Shown here: in pieces, positions 48,088 through 56,413 of the stretch
How positions within the stretch are numbered: the stretch's first letter is position 1
How the letters are laid out: the number at the start of each line of letters is the position of its first letter
Assembly (NCBI RefSeq): GCF_003568865.1
Contig: NZ_CP031115.1
Coordinates: forward strand, 1,922,001 to 1,986,000
Direction of reading: 5' to 3'
DNA length: 64,000 nt
DNA from: Rubrobacter indicoceani
Lineage (GTDB): Bacteria > Actinomycetota > Rubrobacteria > Rubrobacterales > Rubrobacteraceae
The notes under the pieces: model-generated
What the model was told of the DNA's origin: nothing
Databases searched by the model: none
What the model saw: only the letters and a program-made list of their open reading frames with translations
Position numbers and translations under genes: made by a program

Positions 48088-50817
48088 CTAAAAAGAGACG
48101 ACCCGAACCGCCGGGCCTGCAGGTCGGCGAGTTCCGTACCGGATGCGCCTCCTGCGACACCTCGGGTTCTGCCGGACCTGAGCCGGGTTCTCCGCGTTCC
48201 CGGACGGCAACGATTCCGCGCCTCCCTCGCTCGCCGCCGAAGATTCCGAGCCGGGGTCCCCTTCCGTGTAGCTCGGTTCCGTGTAGCTCGGTTCCGTGTA
48301 GCTCGGTTCCGTGTAGCTCGGTTCCGTGTAGCTCGGTTCCGTGTAGCTCGGTTCCGTGTAGCTCGGTTCCGTGTAGCTCGGTTCCGTGTAGCTCGGTTCC
48401 GTGTAGCTCGGTTCCGTGTAGCTCGGTTCCGTGTAGCTCGGTTCCGTGTAGCTCGGTTCCGTGTAGCTCGGTTCCGTGTAGCTCGGTTCCGGTGCGAGCG
48501 TCTCCTGCGTCGGGAGGCTTTCCTGCGTCGGAGGCGGCGGGACGTACTGCGGCACGACCGGCTCCGCAACTCCGGGGTTCTGCGGGTATGTTGCTTCGGG
48601 TTCGGGCGCGATGCTCGCGGTACCGTAGCCGCTCTGGGTGTAGCCGCCCTGCAGGCTGGCTGTCTGTTCCTGCGCCTGAAGCACCGTCCCCGGTTGCGCG
48701 GTGCCTTGCGCGCCGGCGGTCGCGGTTCCGCTGGCCCCGCAGACAACGCAGGTCTGCTCGTAGGATTGCTGCTGATCTGTTGAGGGCGGACTCTGGGAGA
48801 TCACCTGATACACCCGACCACCGTTGGCGGTCGCCCCACCGCCCGTGGCGCTGGCGCTCGCCGAAGACCCGGGTTGAGGTGCTGCCGCCGTCTGATGGCC
48901 CTCACCCTGGGTGGCGGTTCCGCCCGTCGCGGTTCCGCCGCCGCCGCCCGTCGCCGTCCCACCCGGGGCGCAGTAATTACAGAAATTCTCCGCCCGCTGC
49001 ACGTAAAGTACTTCGTGCGTCGTGCCGGATGGTTCCTGAGGTGGAGGAGCCATTATCCGCTGCTGGACTATCCCCTGATAGACCAGCCCGCCGCCGGCAA
49101 AGGCGTCGCCGCCGTTTGCGCTCGCGTCGGCTCCGGCGACGCCGCCGCTTCCGCTTTGAGAAGAACCTTCGGAGACCGCAGGCGTACCCCCGCTTACCGT
49201 TCCGTCGCCCGGTGAGCCGCCGGTGGCGAGCCCGCCGTCGCCACCCGTCGCCGTGCCGCCGGTCGCCTCGCCTCCCGAGCCGCCGACCGCCGTACCGCCG
49301 TCGCCGCAGTAGTTGCAGACGTTCTGTGCGACCTGCTCGTAGACTACCTTTCCGACCCATACCGGAACGTCTACTATCGGGATCTGAACCTGCTGTACAA
49401 GCTGGTATACGCGACCACCGAAAGCCCCTGCGTCGCCACCGTTTGCGCTGGCGTCGGCGCTGGCCGGGCCACCGTCGCCGCCCGTCGCCGCGCCACCGTC
49501 GCCGCCCGCCGCAAGAGAGCCCGAACCGGAGACGGCGTCGCCGCCCGAGCCGCCCAGAGCGCCGCCGCCCGAGCCGCCCGTCGCCGTACCGCCCGTCGCC
49601 GTACCGCCCTCTCCGGCCGAGGCCGTCCCGCCCGAGCCGCAGTAGTTGCAAATGTTCTGTGCGACCTGACGGAATATCACCGTCTCCGCCCACTCGGGGA
49701 TCATGGCCCCGACGGGTGCCTGGACCTGTTTCACGGCCTGCGCAACCAGGCCGCCGTTTGCCCCGACTTCGCCACCGTTTGCGCTGGCGTCGGCGCTGGC
49801 CGGGCCACCGTCGCCGCCCGTCGCCGCGCCACCGTCGCCGCCCGCCGCAAGAGAGCCCGAACCGGAGACGGCGTCGCCGCCCGAGCCGCCCAGAGCGCCG
49901 CCGCCCGAGCCGCCCGTCGCCGTACCGCCCGTCGCCGTACCGCCCTCTCCGGCCGAGGCCGTCCCGCCCGAGCCGCAGTAGTTACAGACCGTTCGGGCGA
50001 TCTGCTCGAAGATGATCGTCTTTGTCTTCGGATCTGAGATAACGTTGAAGAATGACCCGGAGGTGAGATCGGATGAACCCGTGCTGACGACCTCCAGCAG
50101 CTGGCTCGCGCCCTGCTGGACCACGCCCCCGAGCGAGAGCGCATCGCTCCCGTCTGCGCTCGCGTCGCTCTCAGCCGAACCGCCGTTTCCGGCGGTGGCC
50201 GATCCCCCGGCGCCTCCGGTAGCGGTTCCACCGCTACCGGGTACGGCGCTCCCGTCCTGTCCCATCCCCCCCGGCACGCCCGAAACGCCGGGCGAACCAT
50301 CGCCGTTGGTCGCGGTCCCGGCGGCCCCGCCGCCGCCACCGGAGGCGTTTCCCGCCGAGCCGCCCTGTCCCCCGGTGGCCAGACCACCGTCGCCCCCGAC
50401 GGTGCCGCCGCCCTGTCCCCCGGTGGCGACGCCGCCCGTCGCCGTTCCGCCGCCGCCCGCCTCGGACTCCCCGCCGTTGGCGCACACGTCACACGCCTGA
50501 GAAGAATCCTGCGTCACCTTTACCGGGGCCGGAGGGGCCGTCGGTCCGGGAGTGGTCTTTGCAGGCTTCTTTACTGGGGCCTTGACCGGTTTCTTGACGG
50601 GGGCCTTCTTCCTGGCCGAGCCGGAAGTCGTGTTGGACTTGCTGCCGACCTGAGCCTTTACAACCTGAGAGTTGGAGGGACCGGAAGGCTTCTTGCCGGA
50701 GGTCTTCGCCTCAGCGACCGAGAAGGCCGAGAAAAAGAGCGCGAACACAAGGATCAGGATAAGCGCCGCCACGGCTCCCCGACCAAACCACCCGCTGATC
50801 CTCCCCGCTACGTTCAT
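48088..50817 (-). CDS. Secreted glycine-rich modular repeat protein with CxxC motifs and TEPSY tail
   Basis: No family recognised. ATG 50817 has GGGGGAGG upstream and begins a signal peptide (GAVAALILILVFALFFSAF, cut near AEA). A Lys/Pro linker (KKAPVKKPVKAPVKKP) follows. Six modules come next, each opening with CxxC (CDVC, CNYC four times, CVVC), then GGTATGG-type Gly/Thr/Ala runs, an ADASANGG-like step and a hydrophobic Gln/Val strand (VYQLVQQVQIPI). The C-terminus has 15 TEPSY repeats and an Arg-rich end. The 909-residue protein is probably extracellular or wall-associated; cysteine pairs could crosslink or bind metal. A longer frame to 51027 is less likely. Confidence 0.75.
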   Translation of the reverse strand: MNVAGRISGWFGRGAVAALILILVFALFFSAFSVAEAKTSGKKPSGPSNSQVVKAQVGSKSNTTSGSARKKAPVKKPVKAPVKKPAKTTPGPTAPPAPVKVTQDSSQACDVCANGGESEAGGGGTATGGVATGGQGGGTVGGDGGLATGGQGGSAGNASGGGGGAAGTATNGDGSPGVSGVPGGMGQDGSAVPGSGGTATGGAGGSATAGNGGSAESDASADGSDALSLGGVVQQGASQLLEVVSTGSSDLTSGSFFNVISDPKTKTIIFEQIARTVCNYCGSGGTASAGEGGTATGGTATGGSGGGALGGSGGDAVSGSGSLAAGGDGGAATGGDGGPASADASANGGEVGANGGLVAQAVKQVQAPVGAMIPEWAETVIFRQVAQNICNYCGSGGTASAGEGGTATGGTATGGSGGGALGGSGGDAVSGSGSLAAGGDGGAATGGDGGPASADASANGGDAGAFGGRVYQLVQQVQIPIVDVPVWVGKVVYEQVAQNVCNYCGDGGTAVGGSGGEATGGTATGGDGGLATGGSPGDGTVSGGTPAVSEGSSQSGSGGVAGADASANGGDAFAGGGLVYQGIVQQRIMAPPPQEPSGTTHEVLYVQRAENFCNYCAPGGTATGGGGGTATGGTATQGEGHQTAAAPQPGSSASASATGGGATANGGRVYQVISQSPPSTDQQQSYEQTCVVCGASGTATAGAQGTAQPGTVLQAQEQTASLQGGYTQSGYGTASIAPEPEATYPQNPGVAEPVVPQYVPPPPTQESLPTQETLAPEPSYTEPSYTEPSYTEPSYTEPSYTEPSYTEPSYTEPSYTEPSYTEPSYTEPSYTEPSYTEPSYTEPSYTEPSYTEGDPGSESSAASEGGAESLPSGNAENPAQVRQNPRCRRRRIRYGTRRPAGPAVRVVSF
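48266..48490 (-). repeat. 15-bp tandem repeat, 15 identical copies
   Basis: GTGTAGCTCGGTTCC (plus strand) repeats 15 times without a single change over 225 bases. On the coding strand it encodes the pentapeptide TEPSY in tandem. The unit length is a multiple of three, so copy-number change keeps the frame. There are no spacers, so it is not CRISPR. Confidence 0.97.
49433..49647 (-). repeat. Copy A of a 215-bp identical internal duplication
   Basis: By eye, 49433-49647 matches 49769-49983 base for base at an offset of 336 bases (112 codons). It covers the Gly-rich part of a CxxC module. Flanking parts of the two modules differ clearly, so this looks like recent duplication or gene conversion. 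Confidence 0.85.
49769..49983 (-). repeat. Copy B of the 215-bp identical internal duplication
   Basis: Second copy of the repeat at 49433-49647, in the adjacent CxxC module. Both copies encode the run from SGSGSLAAGGDGG-type sequence back to the CNYCG motif. Confidence 0.85.
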
Positions 50818-50931
50818 GAGTCCTCCCCCGGAGCTTCCCTTGTCCAGCATCATCCGGTCTGCCGGAAGATGTTCGCCGTTCTTGCCGCCGCCGTGTAGAG
50901 ATGTCATTCTGATATATCGTTCTGAAAATTC

Positions 50932-50971
50932 TGAAAAGTAAGAAGAGCCGGAACGGAATTCGCGCTCCGGC
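50932..50971 (-). terminator. Rho-independent terminator after the 672-aa repeat protein gene
   Basis: On the minus strand GCCGGAGCG and CGTTCCGGC pair (one G-U) around CGAATTC, followed by TCTTCTTACTTTT. It lies about 65 bases beyond the stop at 51037 and insulates the two repeat-protein genes from each other. Confidence 0.8.
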
Positions 50972-51036
50972 CCAGAGATCGGCCTGTACTTACCGCTGAA
51001 AGACCGCTCGTAGATATCAGGCCCCATGATCCCGGT

Positions 51037-53055
51037 TTACGGCAGGGTCGGGAGAGCTATGGGCAGAACCGCTATCTGCTGGGTCTGCGTGGAACTCTGG
51101 CTGACGCTGCCGCCGCTGGAAGTGGCGGGGGCGCCATTGGCCCCCGCACTCGCATTTGCATCGCCGCCTGCGCCGCCGGTCGCGTCGCCGCCCGAACCGC
51201 TCGTGGCGTCGCCGCCCGAGCCGCCGTTGGCGCTGCCGCCGTCGCCGCCGTTGCCGCCGTTGCCGGTCGTCGCGTCGCCGCCCGAACCACCGGTCGCGTC
51301 ACCGACGTTGCCGCTCGTGGCGCTTCCACCGCTGCCGGTCGTGGCGTTGCCGCCCGAACCGCTGGTGTTGCCGCCTACCGTACCGCCCGTCGTGGTCGTC
51401 GAACCGGTCGAGTTGCTACCGTTCGTGCCGCCCGTGGAGGAGACGTCGCCGGTCGAGTTGGTGCCGACCGAACCACCGGTCGAGGTAGCGTCGTTGTCGG
51501 TGAAGGAACCACCGGTCGCGCCGCCCGTCGTGGTCGTCGAGCCTGAGGAGGTACCGCCGATGGTACCGCCGGCTGCCCCCGCGTCGCCGGTCAGGTTGCC
51601 GTTGCCGGAACCGCCGGTCGTAGTCGTGCCGCCCGTAGAGGAAAAACCACTTGTGCCGCCGGTCGCGCCGCCACCGTCGCCGCTGGTGGAGCCGCCAACG
51701 TCACCGCTCGTAGAGCCGCCGCCCGCCCCGGTCGAGGTATCGCCGACGGAGCTGCCCGCCGCGGTGTCGCCGGTACCGGTAGCACCGACGTTGCCGCTCG
51801 TAGAGCCGCCGCCCGAGCCGGTGGAGTTTCCGCTTGCGGAGCCGCCGGTGGCAGCGCCGCCCGAGCCAGTCGAAGAGCTACTCGCGCCACCGGTCGAATC
51901 TCCGCCTGCGCCGCCGGTAGAGTCGCCGGTGCTACAGGAAGTATTTCCGCTGGTGCTGGTGGCGTCCGCCGAAGCGGCCGCACCGCTCACCGGGACTGCG
52001 GTAGTAACGGGGATACAGGCTCCCTGGTTGCTGCCTCCGGTTGAGGTGCCGCCGTTGCTGCCGGTAGATTCACCGCCAGCCGCGCTCGAGGTACCGCTCG
52101 TACCACCGGTCGCCATTCCGCCGGTTGCGGTCGAGGTGCCGCTCGCGCCGCCGGTCGAAGTACCGCTCGTGCCGCCGGTCGAATCCCCGCTGCCGTCCAG
52201 GTTGACCGCTATCGGGACCGCCACGGCCGTGCCGCTGCCGCCGCCCTGAGACGTGCCGCTGCTCCCGCCCGTCGTCGCGCCGCTGCCGCCGCCCGTAGCG
52301 GAGCCGACGTTGCCGCTTGTGGAAGTGCCGCTTGATGCGCCGTTGGCCACACCGTCCGCGGCCTGGTCGTTGATCTGACCGCTTGTCGCCGTGCCGCTGG
52401 CGTTGGCGTTGTTGTTCGCGTCGCCGCTTGACGCGCCGTTTGCCGTGCCGCCGCTGGAGCTTGCGTCACCGGAGGCGTTTGACTGTGATCCGCCGCCGCT
52501 GGCGCTCGCGTTGCCGCTCGTGGCGCCGGTGGAGTTGGCCTGACCGTTGTGGGTCGCGCCGCCACTTGATGCGCCGTTGGCCACACCGTCCGCGGCCTGG
52601 TCGTTGATCTGACCGCTCGCACCGCCCGTGGCCGTGCCGCTGCCGCCGCCCGTAGCGGTGGACGAGCCGTTGTTGGTCCCGGCCGCGCCGCTCCCGGCGT
52701 TGGCCGTTCCGCTTGCCGCTCCGGCTCCGCCCGAGGCGTCGCCGCCGGAAGCTCCGGCCCCGGCGTTGGCCTGGCCGCCGCTTCCGGCGTTGCCCGCACC
52801 ACCCGGGGCACCCGCCGCGTCGCCGCCCACGGAGATCCCACCGAAGCCGCCGACGGCCTTGCCGCCGTTGCCTCCCGTAGCATTCTGCCTTGAAACCTGC
52901 GCGGGACTGTTCTTCTTGACCTTGACGACTTTGTGCTTCTTCGGCTTGTGCTGGCCTTTGTAACCCGCTGTAGCCATGGCTGTAGTAGGTGTAACTGCCA
53001 TGATGATGACCGCGATCATTGCCACGAATAACATCATCTTCTTCACGATTTGCAC
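51037..53055 (-). CDS. Secreted Gly/Ser/Thr/Asn-rich repeat protein
   Basis: No family recognised. GTG 53055 has AGAAGGAGG nine bases upstream and starts a signal peptide (KKMMLFVAMIAVIIMAVTP, cut after AMA). A Lys-rich stretch (QHKPKKHKVVKVKKN) follows, then about 560 residues of TGG/GSG/SGN low-complexity sequence. SGQINDQAADGVANGASSG occurs twice, encoded by 53-base identical DNA at 52331-52383 and 52565-52617. Only two Cys (ACIPV, SCSTG) are present. The C-terminus is SVSQSSTQTQQIAVLPI. Composition resembles the CxxC protein downstream, so the two probably share a surface role. Confidence 0.75.
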   Translation of the reverse strand: MQIVKKMMLFVAMIAVIIMAVTPTTAMATAGYKGQHKPKKHKVVKVKKNSPAQVSRQNATGGNGGKAVGGFGGISVGGDAAGAPGGAGNAGSGGQANAGAGASGGDASGGAGAASGTANAGSGAAGTNNGSSTATGGGSGTATGGASGQINDQAADGVANGASSGGATHNGQANSTGATSGNASASGGGSQSNASGDASSSGGTANGASSGDANNNANASGTATSGQINDQAADGVANGASSGTSTSGNVGSATGGGSGATTGGSSGTSQGGGSGTAVAVPIAVNLDGSGDSTGGTSGTSTGGASGTSTATGGMATGGTSGTSSAAGGESTGSNGGTSTGGSNQGACIPVTTAVPVSGAAASADATSTSGNTSCSTGDSTGGAGGDSTGGASSSSTGSGGAATGGSASGNSTGSGGGSTSGNVGATGTGDTAAGSSVGDTSTGAGGGSTSGDVGGSTSGDGGGATGGTSGFSSTGGTTTTGGSGNGNLTGDAGAAGGTIGGTSSGSTTTTGGATGGSFTDNDATSTGGSVGTNSTGDVSSTGGTNGSNSTGSTTTTGGTVGGNTSGSGGNATTGSGGSATSGNVGDATGGSGGDATTGNGGNGGDGGSANGGSGGDATSGSGGDATGGAGGDANASAGANGAPATSSGGSVSQSSTQTQQIAVLPIALPTLP

Positions 53056-53589
53056 GATTCGCACCTCCTTCTGTCTGCTCTTGGATCTTCTGCTTGCCCG
53101 TAATGCCCCTGAACCGGCCGGGTCCCTCTGCCCGCTGTGCCTCTCCCTGATACCCACCTCGCCTTCCCTGGTTAGCAAGAATTTTCTGACTCACCTTTCC
53201 CTCAGCAATGATCTCCCGAGGCACGAAACCTGTAATCGCTTAAATGGGCGATCTTTGTCTGGCCCAAATGCGCTAGCCGTACCCCCCCGGCGCCCTCACC
53301 CCACACCAGGCCCGTAATCCCGTTCCAAAGCGGAGATCCGGGCCTCGAAGGCCTCATTCGACCAGACCTCGAAGCTGCATCTCACCCTCTACCGCACGTG
53401 CAGGTTCAGCGTCTGGTAGAGGTTACGGGGTTAGTGAAAGGCGTGGTTGTCCGGGTGGTAGTCCATTTGGGTTAGTGATACTTGGCTCAAATACGCGATG
53501 TGCCGTCTGCCGGGGGCGGTTAGATTGGTTTGCAGGCGGGATCGTTCGGGTCTCGGAGGCGTAGACGGCATCAGAAGGAGGTGAGACAC
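53056..53589. other. Long divergent intergenic region between repeat protein and precursor peptide genes
   Basis: 534 bases with no supported gene. The side next to the repeat protein gives a leader of up to about 230 nt that may be structured: CCTCG/CGAGG arms enclose 53157-53225. The middle contains TGGGC/GCCCA arms near 53245-53270. An 8-bp hairpin (CCTCTACC at 53386-53393, GGTAGAGG at 53415-53422) and two GGGTTAGTGA boxes lie before the peptide gene. No standard -35/-10 pair was clear. Confidence 0.5.
53428..53478 (+). promoter_or_regulatory. Two GGGTTAGTGA direct repeats upstream of the precursor peptide gene
   Basis: GGGTTAGTGA occurs at 53428-53437 and 53469-53478, 41 bases (about four helical turns) apart, in the same orientation. 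GGGTTAGT is also found on the minus strand at 55645-55652 upstream of the 111-residue gene of the same island. They may be binding sites for a common activator, possibly the LuxR-type regulator nearby. Confidence 0.45.
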
Positions 53590-53808
53590 GTGGAGAAAGA
53601 ACGCACAGGTGGAACGGGTCTGAATAGGGAAGAGCTGGAGGCTCAGTCGGCCGGGTTGCTCCCCGATCGTCTGGAGATGAGGCATCGGCGGCACGGAAGG
53701 CGCAGGAGGGGCCGGGGGCTGGTCCTCGTTATCGTTGACGACGGCAACCAGTTCAACAACGGCATCTACTATCCGCCACCGTACTACACGCAGCCGCCGG
53801 CAGTATAG
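53590..53808 (+). CDS. Small putative ribosomal-peptide (RiPP-like) precursor
   Basis: Begins at GTG 53590, seven to nine bases after a near-perfect AAGGAGGTGA. The 72-residue product has a leader-like acidic helix (LNREELEAQSAGLLPDRLEM, residues 11-30), an Arg-rich block (RHRRHGRRRRGRG, 31-43), a hydrophobic stretch (LVLVIVDDG) and a Tyr/Pro/Asn-rich tail (NGIYYPPPYYTQPPAV). The LPDR-type leader, with a short variable tail, resembles small peptide precursors in actinobacteria. There is no signal peptide. A terminator follows, then a protease with a PqqD-like domain. Modification or cleavage is inferred, not shown. Confidence 0.6.
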   Translation: MEKERTGGTGLNREELEAQSAGLLPDRLEMRHRRHGRRRRGRGLVLVIVDDGNQFNNGIYYPPPYYTQPPAV

Positions 53809-53847
53809 GGTTTTGCGTGCATCACGCACGATGAGAGACGGGGCAGC

Positions 53848-53878
53848 GGGGATGGACTTTCGAGTCGTCCCCGTTTTT
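53848..53878 (+). terminator. UUCG-loop terminator between precursor peptide and protease genes
   Basis: GGGGA/TCCCC and GACT/AGTC form a stem with a small internal bulge closed by a TTCG tetraloop, followed by GTTTTTC. This intrinsic terminator lies between the peptide stop (53808) and protease start (53902). A small hairpin (GCGTG/CACGC, 53815-53827) precedes it. It would make the short peptide message more abundant than the protease message. Confidence 0.75.
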
Positions 53879-53901
53879 CGTGTCTCGAGAGGAACTGCAG
53901 A

Positions 53902-55218
53902 TTGACCGCCGCCAGAGAGACTGCCGACCACAAGAACGCATCGCAGGGGGTGAGGTTCGCGCCCGCAGAGGGTCTGGACTTCATCGGGGAGTATCGGGAC
54001 TCCGGGCTCGCCGATCCGCCGTATCTGGTGCGTCGGGCGGACGGTCAGGTCGTGCAGTTGTCGCGCCTGCTGTACCTGCTCGTCGGTTGTATGGACGGGT
54101 TCCGGGACGCAGAGGAGATCTCCGAGCGCGTGAGCCTTGAGTTCGGTCGCCGGGTGACGGCACAGAACGTCGAGTTTCTGGTAGAGAAAAAGCTTCTGTC
54201 TCTCGGTTTGCTCGCGGCGGGTGGCGGCTCCGACCTCGCGCCGCCGAGGCTGGACGCAGCGTTTCTCGGGTTGCGGTATCGCATCGGGCTGCTCTCCGCC
54301 GGTACTGTCTGGAAGGCGACGACCCCGTTTCTGTGGCTGTTTCGTCGCGGGGTGATGGTCGGGATGCTCGTCGCCCTGCTTGCGCTGGACGTGTGGGCGC
54401 TCGCGTTTCACGGTGTGCTCGAAGGGGTGCAGGAGATCCTTTACCAGCCGTCGCTGATCCTTGCTTTCGTGGCGATAGAGATGTTCGCGATGGCGTGGCA
54501 CGAGTGCGGCCACGCGGCGGCCTGTCGTTACGGCGGTGCGAAGCCGGGCGTGGTCGGGGTCGGGATCTACGTTATATGGTTTGTTTTCTACAGCGACGTG
54601 ACCGACTCTTACCGGCTCGATAAACGCGGACGGCTCAGAACCGACGCGGGCGGACTTTATTTCGACGCCATCTTCACGCTCGGCATAGCCGCAGCCTACT
54701 TCCTTACCGGCTTCGAGCCGTTGCTGATCCTCGCCCTTCTGAACCAGCTGAACGCCCTCGATGAGTTCTCGCCGTTTCTGCGCCTCGACGGCTACTACAT
54801 AATGAGCGACCTCACGGGTATCCCGGACCCTTTCAAGTACGTAAAGCCCGTCCTGCTCGGCCTGATACCGGGCCGCACCCCCGCACCGGAGGTCCGGGCC
54901 ATGAAACCCTGGGTTCGGAGGATCATAACGTTATGGGTGCTCTCGGTCGTCCCGGTGCTCTTCGTGGGGCTCGGGGTCTTGATCTTCTACGGGCCCTGGT
55001 TTCTTTCTAAGGCCTGGGATTCCCTGCGGGTTCAGCTGGCCGGGCTCTCCGAGGCGACTCGCGAGGGAACCGCCCCCGAGGTCTTGCTCGGCCTGCTGAA
55101 CGTGGCCGCGCTTCTCATTCCGGTGCTGGGCGGGACGCTGCTTTTGCTGGCCGTTTTCGGAGGAATTCTGAGAAGGGTGCGCCGTCGCCTGAACCGGAGC
55201 GGCTGCTCCACAGGCTGA
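53902..55218 (+). CDS. Membrane zinc metalloprotease (M50/site-2-like) with N-terminal PqqD-like domain
   Basis: Residues 35-105 resemble the PqqD/RRE winged-helix domain (QVVQLSRLLYLLVGCMDGFRDAEEI, VTAQNVEFLVEKKLLSLGLL), which in RiPP systems binds precursor leaders. Residues 140-438 form a multi-helix membrane protein with the zinc motif HECGH (200-204) and the second metal motif SPFLRLDGYYIMSD (Asp296), as in putative peptide zinc metalloproteases. The start is TTG 53902 with GAGAGG upstream. It lies 93 bases after the precursor gene on the same strand, past a terminator, and likely processes or exports that peptide. Confidence 0.8.
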   Translation: MTAARETADHKNASQGVRFAPAEGLDFIGEYRDSGLADPPYLVRRADGQVVQLSRLLYLLVGCMDGFRDAEEISERVSLEFGRRVTAQNVEFLVEKKLLSLGLLAAGGGSDLAPPRLDAAFLGLRYRIGLLSAGTVWKATTPFLWLFRRGVMVGMLVALLALDVWALAFHGVLEGVQEILYQPSLILAFVAIEMFAMAWHECGHAAACRYGGAKPGVVGVGIYVIWFVFYSDVTDSYRLDKRGRLRTDAGGLYFDAIFTLGIAAAYFLTGFEPLLILALLNQLNALDEFSPFLRLDGYYIMSDLTGIPDPFKYVKPVLLGLIPGRTPAPEVRAMKPWVRRIITLWVLSVVPVLFVGLGVLIFYGPWFLSKAWDSLRVQLAGLSEATREGTAPEVLLGLLNVAALLIPVLGGTLLLLAVFGGILRRVRRRLNRSGCSTG

Positions 55219-55259
55219 GCCGGCAACGATTCGCTGATCACTCTTTCGGAGCGCGAAGC

Positions 55260-55595
55260 TCAGCCTTCGAGCGCGAGCAGAGCCTCGTCCAGAACGCCGA
55301 GGATATCCGACACTTCGAGGTTCTGGATAATCCTTACCTCCCCGCCGAACCCGACCCGCGAAACAGGGCCGTCATCCGGGTGCAACTCAATCCAGAAAGG
55401 GACCGCAGACTCCATCGCCGGGGTGATGCGGTTGCAGATCACGAACTGCGGTCGCTGCTTTGTGATCTCGGCGTCGAGGTTCATCCAGTTGACCCTAATA
55501 ACCTCGATGTCCGGTCGCTCAAGCTCCACGATGCCGGCGATGGCCTCCTGGTACGATCTCCACTCGTTGGCTACTAGCAGCTTCGTAATGCACAT
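55260..55595 (-). CDS. 111-residue unknown protein, receiver-like fold suspected
   Basis: Function unknown. The alternating pattern (KLLVANEW, DIEVIRVNW, PQFVICNR, EVRIIQNL, ILGVLDEALLALEG) looks like a small alpha/beta response-regulator receiver, but the phospho-acceptor Asp and the conserved Lys are not in place. It could be a pseudo-receiver protein. It is convergent with the protease gene and downstream of the LuxR-type regulator. GGGTTAGT lies upstream at 55645-55652, shared with the precursor peptide promoter region. Confidence 0.6.
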   Translation of the reverse strand: MCITKLLVANEWRSYQEAIAGIVELERPDIEVIRVNWMNLDAEITKQRPQFVICNRITPAMESAVPFWIELHPDDGPVSRVGFGGEVRIIQNLEVSDILGVLDEALLALEG

Positions 55596-55720: not shown

Positions 55721-56413
55721 CTAGAAGCTGATGAGACCGTGCCGGGCGACAAAGACCACGGCTTGGAGGCGAGAATGCACCCCGAGTTTGGTCAGGATGT
55801 TGACGATGTGGGTCCGTTCCGTTTCAAGGGCGATGTGGAACTTCTTTGCTATCTCCTTGCTGTCCAGTCCCTCGGCGAGCGCGCTCAGAATCTCCCGCTC
55901 CCGGGCGGTGAGCCGGGCGAAGGCCTTTTCTGCCTCGCGGTCGCCGTAGCGTTTCTTGCTCGCTATACGGAGCATCTCGATGATCTCCTGCGAAGAGAGC
56001 AGAGCCTCTCCGGCCCGGACGCTGCGTACCGAATCCACTATCCGGTCGAGGGCCACGGTCTTGTGTATGACCCCGGAGGCCCCGGCCTCTACCGCACGGG
56101 CGAAATCGTCCCGGTCGAGGCTCGCCGTGAGCACCAGAGTGCTTACGCCGCTCTCCGCCAGATGCCGGACGAGGTCTACCCCGTCGCCGTCCGGGAGCCC
56201 GAGGTCCACGACCGCGATGTCCACCACTTCGTCGTGCCGCTCTATCGCCTCCCTCGCCTCCGACATGCTCCCGACGTGGCACACCACCTCGAAGCCCGGC
56301 TCGGTGTCGAGGAAATAAGCCAGCGACTGGCGAAAGGAGATGTGATCCTCGACCAGCATGATCCCGGTCGCAGTGTCATCCTCGGTTTCTTCGCGCCGTT
56401 CCAGAGACATCAT
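55721..56413 (-). CDS. NarL/LuxR-family response regulator without adjacent kinase
   Basis: The receiver domain (residues 15-130) has GIMLVEDHISFRQSLAYFL, the phospho-acceptor Asp in VVDLGLPDGDGVDL, VLTASL and the conserved Lys in GVIHKTVALD. The LuxR helix-turn-helix (about residues 165-225) has LTAREREILSALAEGLDSKEIAKKF and HIVNILTKLGVHSRLQAV. ATG 56413 follows GGAGG by six bases. No histidine kinase is encoded nearby, so it may be an orphan or use a distant kinase. Its position suggests control of the peptide/protease island. Confidence 0.9.
   Translation of the reverse strand: MMSLERREETEDDTATGIMLVEDHISFRQSLAYFLDTEPGFEVVCHVGSMSEAREAIERHDEVVDIAVVDLGLPDGDGVDLVRHLAESGVSTLVLTASLDRDDFARAVEAGASGVIHKTVALDRIVDSVRSVRAGEALLSSQEIIEMLRIASKKRYGDREAEKAFARLTAREREILSALAEGLDSKEIAKKFHIALETERTHIVNILTKLGVHSRLQAVVFVARHGLISF

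Follow-up and report, generated by a model that had tools for sequence, protein, structure and literature searches.

What is the role of a short peptide encoded just upstream of a membrane metalloprotease whose N-terminus resembles the domains that read peptide leaders? The question is raised by a locus of Rubrobacter indicoceani at positions 53590-55218 of a 64,000-nt stretch of the genome (hereinafter, the window; all positions are within it). RRE domains are known to read the address tags of modified peptides, and the features from which the locus appears to be built are the following.

53574..53585, + strand: Shine-Dalgarno sequence AGAAGGAGGTGA of the peptide gene, read directly from the sequence
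53590..53808, + strand: gene for a 72-aa putative precursor peptide, GTG start, TAG stop at 53806-53808 (ORF and leader-model match)
53620..53679, + strand: leader segment, residues 11-30, LNREELEAQSAGLLPDRLEM (conservation with the EELEAQ....LPDRxEM of relatives)
53680..53805, + strand: putative core, residues 31-72, with an Arg block, an LVLVIV stretch and a Tyr/Pro tail
53846..53874, + strand: UUCG hairpin followed by a T-run, terminator-like (-17.1 kcal/mol, z -4.2)
53902..55218, + strand: gene for a predicted RRE-M50 intramembrane metalloprotease, 438 aa (ORF, motifs, family models, AlphaFold)
53953..54219, + strand: predicted RRE/PqqD-like domain, approximately residues 18-106 (AlphaFold, Foldseek; hhalign E 2.1e-5)
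54499..54513, + strand: HECGH zinc/catalytic motif, residues 200-204 (H200, E201, G203 and H204 invariant in 24 homologs)
54787..54798, + strand: DGYY, second zinc-ligand motif, residues 296-299 (D296, G297 and Y298 invariant in 24 homologs)

The first-pass annotation had described a 72-residue peptide with an acidic, leader-like segment at residues 11-30, an arginine block and a Tyr/Pro tail, then a UUCG terminator, then a membrane metalloprotease with HECGH and DGYY motifs; all of these are present as described, the UUCG hairpin is followed by a T-run and is terminator-like, and the motifs are intact, with H200, E201, H204 and D296 retained throughout the homologs. The GTG at 53590 is favoured as the start of the peptide over a longer in-frame alternative (TTG 53530) because of the position of the Shine-Dalgarno sequence, and third-position GC of the window reading frames is gene-like (0.74 and 0.80). 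A search with a leader model built from 17 relatives, with the window sequence excluded, ranks the peptide ORF first among the 1336 ORFs of the window (E 3.2e-6; 0.46 for the next one). When the 3.08-Mb genome is scanned with a model that includes the window leader in its training, the peptide site is the sole good match (next E 0.94). A model made from Actinomadura alone misses the window peptide, and the model of the remaining relatives finds it; Pfam has no match for this peptide. The hairpin between the two genes is more stable than all 200 shuffles, and comparable hairpins were found in only 3 of the 19 related loci checked; an attenuating role, as named in the first-pass annotation, goes further than these data. 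It is absent from the list of a simple terminator scan, apparently because of a bulge, and Rfam yields no match within 53180-55300.

Among the relatives of this peptide, the leader is conserved and the core varies between lineages. The leader follows the approximate pattern (L/F)(S/T)xx(E/D)L(E/D)x(L/Q)xGExLP(E/D)Rxx(L/M)S (also written EELEAQ....LPDRxEM), and an alignment of 48 leaders on LPxR/K has L or I at position -8 throughout, with E/D dominant around it. The cores consist mostly of hydrophobic 'NVAAPVNAAVAANVLSDDS' units. The commonest core outside Actinomadura is NVAAPVNAAVAANVLSDDSxAYANAEQxxxIDQS, often encoded in tandem genes, and in some relatives the precursor is a protein of 230-290 aa with several such units; Cys-containing cores of two kinds, one Gly-rich, are found in Actinomadura. 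Pfam and NCBIfam searches with the relatives' peptides identify no known precursor family.

Four relatives' peptides share with the chaplins (PF03777) a short VxVPVxxxxNVCG-like stretch in the core (hhalign score 25.2 versus at most 18.4 in 100 shuffles); this is a weak profile-profile similarity only, as the Pfam chaplin model matches neither the relatives' peptides nor the window genome. Unlike chaplins, these peptides carry an LPxR leader and no Sec signal, and the stretch is not seen in the window core. The latter is composed of RHRRHGRRRRGRG, then LVLVIVDDGNQFNNG, then IYYPPPYYTQPPAV, ends in PPAV and has a net charge of about +6 (R, K, D and E counted). It matches no core among the relatives, and inspection by eye of the other frames behind the window leader turned up no frame-shifted core of the relatives' type. 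Thus, to judge from its sequence, the window core, with its Arg block and Tyr/Pro tail, is cationic and unusual in comparison with those of the relatives.

The first-pass annotation had staked its reading on a PqqD/RRE-like N-terminus of the protease, and this resemblance is borne out by the predicted fold, Foldseek and hhalign. The AlphaFold model (24-row alignment, mean pLDDT 80.7) places a beta3-alpha3 domain (residues 26-98) ahead of a helical membrane half. For the N-terminal domain, Foldseek identifies TbiB1, an RRE bound to a leader (5v1u, probability 0.98), and TruD (4bs9, 0.94-0.97), and a search with a second model of the protease finds PqqD (5sxy, probability 0.96, target TM 0.63), although every Foldseek E-value for this protease is above 0.001. 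All matches with a probability above 0.85 are RREs or RRE-containing proteins; the next one is the carbamoyltransferase GdmN, at 0.80. An hhalign comparison of the N-terminus with 16 PqqD-type domains gives E 2.1e-5 and a probability of 77, and a sequence-profile search of the PDB returns a single match, PqqD 3g2b, with E 0.14. Pfam names no family for the protease and does not call PqqD. We therefore take the N-terminal domain as a probable RRE that lies below the usual sensitivity of Pfam. A single-chain model was also made of the window DNA from the peptide through the RRE, with the TAG read as Gln, as a modelling device that implies no claim of read-through. In this artificial model, made with the native leader alone, leader residues 11-20 have a pLDDT of 83 and residues 22-23 form a beta bridge; the core is at about 40 and the RRE at 91-96. 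The model suggests that the leader could dock on the RRE.

An alignment of the protease with its homologs (24 sequences) contains 38 invariant columns. The start of the protease is ambiguous between TTG 53902 and a GTG about 16 codons further on, close to the starts of some relatives. The NCBIfam models for the daptide_HExxH (NF041824) and YydH/LiaK (NF058609) families both match all 24 aligned family members; the window protease scores 84.7 bits against a cut-off of 300 with the former and 25.9 bits against 225 with the latter. PADLOC assigns no defence family. In a maximum-likelihood tree, the family is split from two DapPs by a 100/100 branch, at which long branches meet, and by this tree forms its own clade, apart from the DapPs. 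The branch of the window protease is long (1.03).

Conservation of a small peptide beside the protease in relatives, the other point on which the first-pass annotation had agreed in advance to stand or fall, also holds. A leader ORF is located at most 1.5 kb upstream on the same strand in 56 of 63 family loci. It is divergent in two others (L084, L100), weak in two (L111, L114; E 0.024-0.072) and seen by eye in two more (L115, L120); one family protease, in L105, lacks an adjacent leader peptide. The latter locus is on contig G191:C2, and three leader peptides are encoded on another contig of the same genome (G191:C4:550326-551244). The pairing model was trained on part of the 63 loci; of the 14 loci outside the training set, 9 exceed the threshold on one strand or the other, and an LPxR-type peptide of some kind is present in 13. 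The controls are clean, with matches in 0/26 distant M50 loci and 0/35 unrelated stretches. Across 396 genomes of the phylum, 26 have a protease match, 19 a peptide and 17 both (Fisher p 1.8e-21); 24 of the 26 have the family proper, the match in G060 is a DapP that passes the cut-off, and that in G231 belongs to another M50 group. The joint peptide-protease alignment was made of in-frame read-through rows. In addition to the 24 of 396 sampled genomes, the family is found in 37 Actinomadura loci and on two Streptomyces plasmids (L189, NZ_CP107797.1; L190, NZ_CP102333.1, from Streptomyces changanensis HL-66), where the genes are annotated as hypothetical; the plasmid copies suggest horizontal movement. 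A separate M50 group (L193-L209) consists of long frames (about 490-1000 aa) whose N-terminal xxMDGxRTV stretches recall PqqD. These genes score below the daptide_HExxH cut-off, and the search upstream of the eight that were used as controls gave no LPxR leader.

Among the closest described counterparts is the daptide protease DapP/MpaP, which similarly combines an RRE with an M50 intramembrane protease and adjoins the gene of its leader peptide, often with several precursors per locus. Mutations have demonstrated contact between leader and RRE for the daptide protein MpaB, and the leader peptidase MpaP is reported to be RRE-dependent (PMC10036551). The window unit is nevertheless not a daptide cluster, whether by score, by accessory genes or by a C-terminal Thr: the protease falls far short of the cut-off that the DapPs L191 and L192 exceed (485 and 407 bits), genes of the DapB, C, D or M type are absent from the surroundings of the pair (no oxidative decarboxylase, aminotransferase or methyltransferase gene among the window genes, 45.8-64 kb), and the core does not end in the Thr of daptide precursors; the leader motif differs as well. 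YydH/EpeP/LiaK also is an M50 membrane protease beside a small peptide, but the present family differs in its leader and in the RRE at its N-terminus, and scores far below the cut-off of that model; no radical-SAM epimerase, as would be expected for epipeptides, is encoded among the window genes at 45.8-64 kb. EpeP is reported to suffice for the production of the epipeptide, which it presumably both cleaves and exports (PMC10885120). Site-2 proteases of the SpoIVFB type share the membrane-half fold and the HExxH motif (Foldseek match to SpoIVFB with pro-sigmaK, 8vjm, probability 0.75), but here an RRE precedes the protease, and the proposed substrate is the encoded leader peptide rather than a pro-sigma factor. 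RRE-dependent leader systems combine an RRE fold fused to a processing enzyme with a co-encoded precursor that has a conserved leader and a variable core, and the structural model together with the aligned precursors indicates that both are present in this family. Whether the unit is a RiPP system depends on modification of the core, and no tailoring gene was found nearby. The open-access literature contains no description of a leader-peptide/RRE-M50 pair, absence there being no proof.

These observations are best compatible, with a probability of about 0.72, with a two-gene unit for leader-guided peptide maturation, in which the leader is bound and cut and the core is released, probably unmodified. 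The peptide would be made without a Sec signal, its leader (EELEAQ....LPDRxEM) would be bound on the cytoplasmic side by the N-terminal RRE of the protease, the site-2-type M50 domain would cleave the peptide in or at the membrane, at the leader or directly behind it, and outward release of the core would follow. By analogy with DapP and EpeP, we infer that the unit binds, cuts and releases its peptide, in the manner of DapP minus the chemistry; likewise deduced are where the cut falls, the export, the lack of modification and what the product does. With no dedicated tailoring enzyme encoded in the unit, the core most probably stays unmodified. The cores of the relatives, mostly hydrophobic, repeat-like and chaplin-like within one branch, point to a role of the product at the cell surface; because the window member is divergent, this prediction rests on the relatives and may not carry over to the window core. 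In this and dozens of other actinobacteria, the pair thus has the look of a two-gene system, as yet undescribed, for cutting and releasing small peptides that probably belong to the cell surface.

The alternative that survives best, although we consider it improbable, is that the unit is part of a true RiPP pathway, in which the core is modified by an enzyme that is encoded elsewhere and uses the same leader, so that just the subsequent removal of this leader is left to the protease, as with DapP in daptides. The closest named proteases, DapP and YydH/EpeP, indeed serve modified peptides (PMC10036551, PMC10885120). However, no tailoring enzyme recurs beside the pair in the 10 relatives surveyed or accompanies it in the window: among the 56 flanking proteins from ten loci, the 25 most frequent families include no tailoring enzyme or exporter that recurs, the repeating domains being only those of housekeeping proteins and regulators, and the window genes at 45.8-64 kb include no tailoring enzyme. 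The absence of a cyclase or radical-SAM gene noted in the first-pass annotation accordingly extends from these window genes to the flanks of the relatives. The cores, moreover, differ too much between lineages for one shared modification to be easily seen.

Still less probable is regulated intramembrane proteolysis, whereby the peptide would inhibit the site-2 protease or serve it as a substrate in signalling or regulation, instead of being an exported product. The membrane half is SpoIVFB-like, SpoIVFB cuts pro-sigmaK, and the window, like some relatives, has LuxR-type regulators encoded close to the pair; yet several tandem precursors per locus that share a leader and diverge in their cores, and 230-290-aa precursors made of repeated units, fit a product better, and the RRE reads peptide leaders in all solved cases that we found. 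The long branch of the window protease and a core that matches no relative's imply that the window member could be drifting, but outright decay, with the leader kept and the function of the core lost, is very unlikely: the core is unlike that of any relative, the protease branch is long and the protease is missing from G001, the sole congeneric genome in the sample, whereas the Shine-Dalgarno sequence is strong, the reading frames, leader and catalytic motifs are intact, and third-position GC is that of genes.

Leader-guided maturation by a tag, a reader and a membrane protease, without a modifying enzyme, would uncouple leader recognition from chemistry and suggests that RRE logic serves plain proteolysis and export, too. 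A more far-reaching version, which we put forward tentatively and regard as doubtful, is a Sec-independent export route in which the RRE-site-2 protease alone processes unmodified, surface-forming, partly chaplin-like proteins, joined in several lineages by a third component, a secreted CxxC protein. Should the chaplin-like cores prove to be true relatives of chaplins, RiPP-type handling would be linked to surface amyloids. Because the pair is present in Actinomadura loci and on Streptomyces plasmids, these predictions are testable in cultivable strains. The candidate third component is a secreted protein with two Cys-x2-3-Cys motifs, encoded downstream of the protease in L083, L084, L111 and L189; in L085-L087, the two-Cys-pair domain is a C-terminal extension of the protease itself, and no such protein or domain was seen beside the window pair.

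The scanned neighbours of the pair in the window include oligopeptide ABC components, a MarR protein, a drug-type ABC exporter, a bactofilin-like protein and a sigma factor. Two adjacent genes, divergent from that of the peptide, encode large Gly/Thr/Ser-rich repeat proteins (48088-51027 and 51037-53178, both on the - strand) with signal-peptide-like N-termini. The suggestion that the protease or its product acts on these surface proteins found no support, given their signal-peptide-like starts and opposite strand, and was dropped because none of the relatives surveyed has such a neighbour beside the protease. The protein encoded at 48088-51027 contains repeated NVCNYCG units, and a perfect 15-base tandem repeat at 48262-48491 (15.3 copies, 100% identity) encodes (TEPSY)n near its C-terminus. 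On the other side, downstream of and convergent with the protease gene, a LuxR-type response regulator is encoded at 55721-56413 (- strand). A LuxR-type regulator with the N-terminal sequence MRLLDIEVHSP is found at L082:4115-4510 (- strand), with similar ORFs in L080 and L081; in these three loci, the ORFs are located about 1.3-2.2 kb upstream of the precursor genes.
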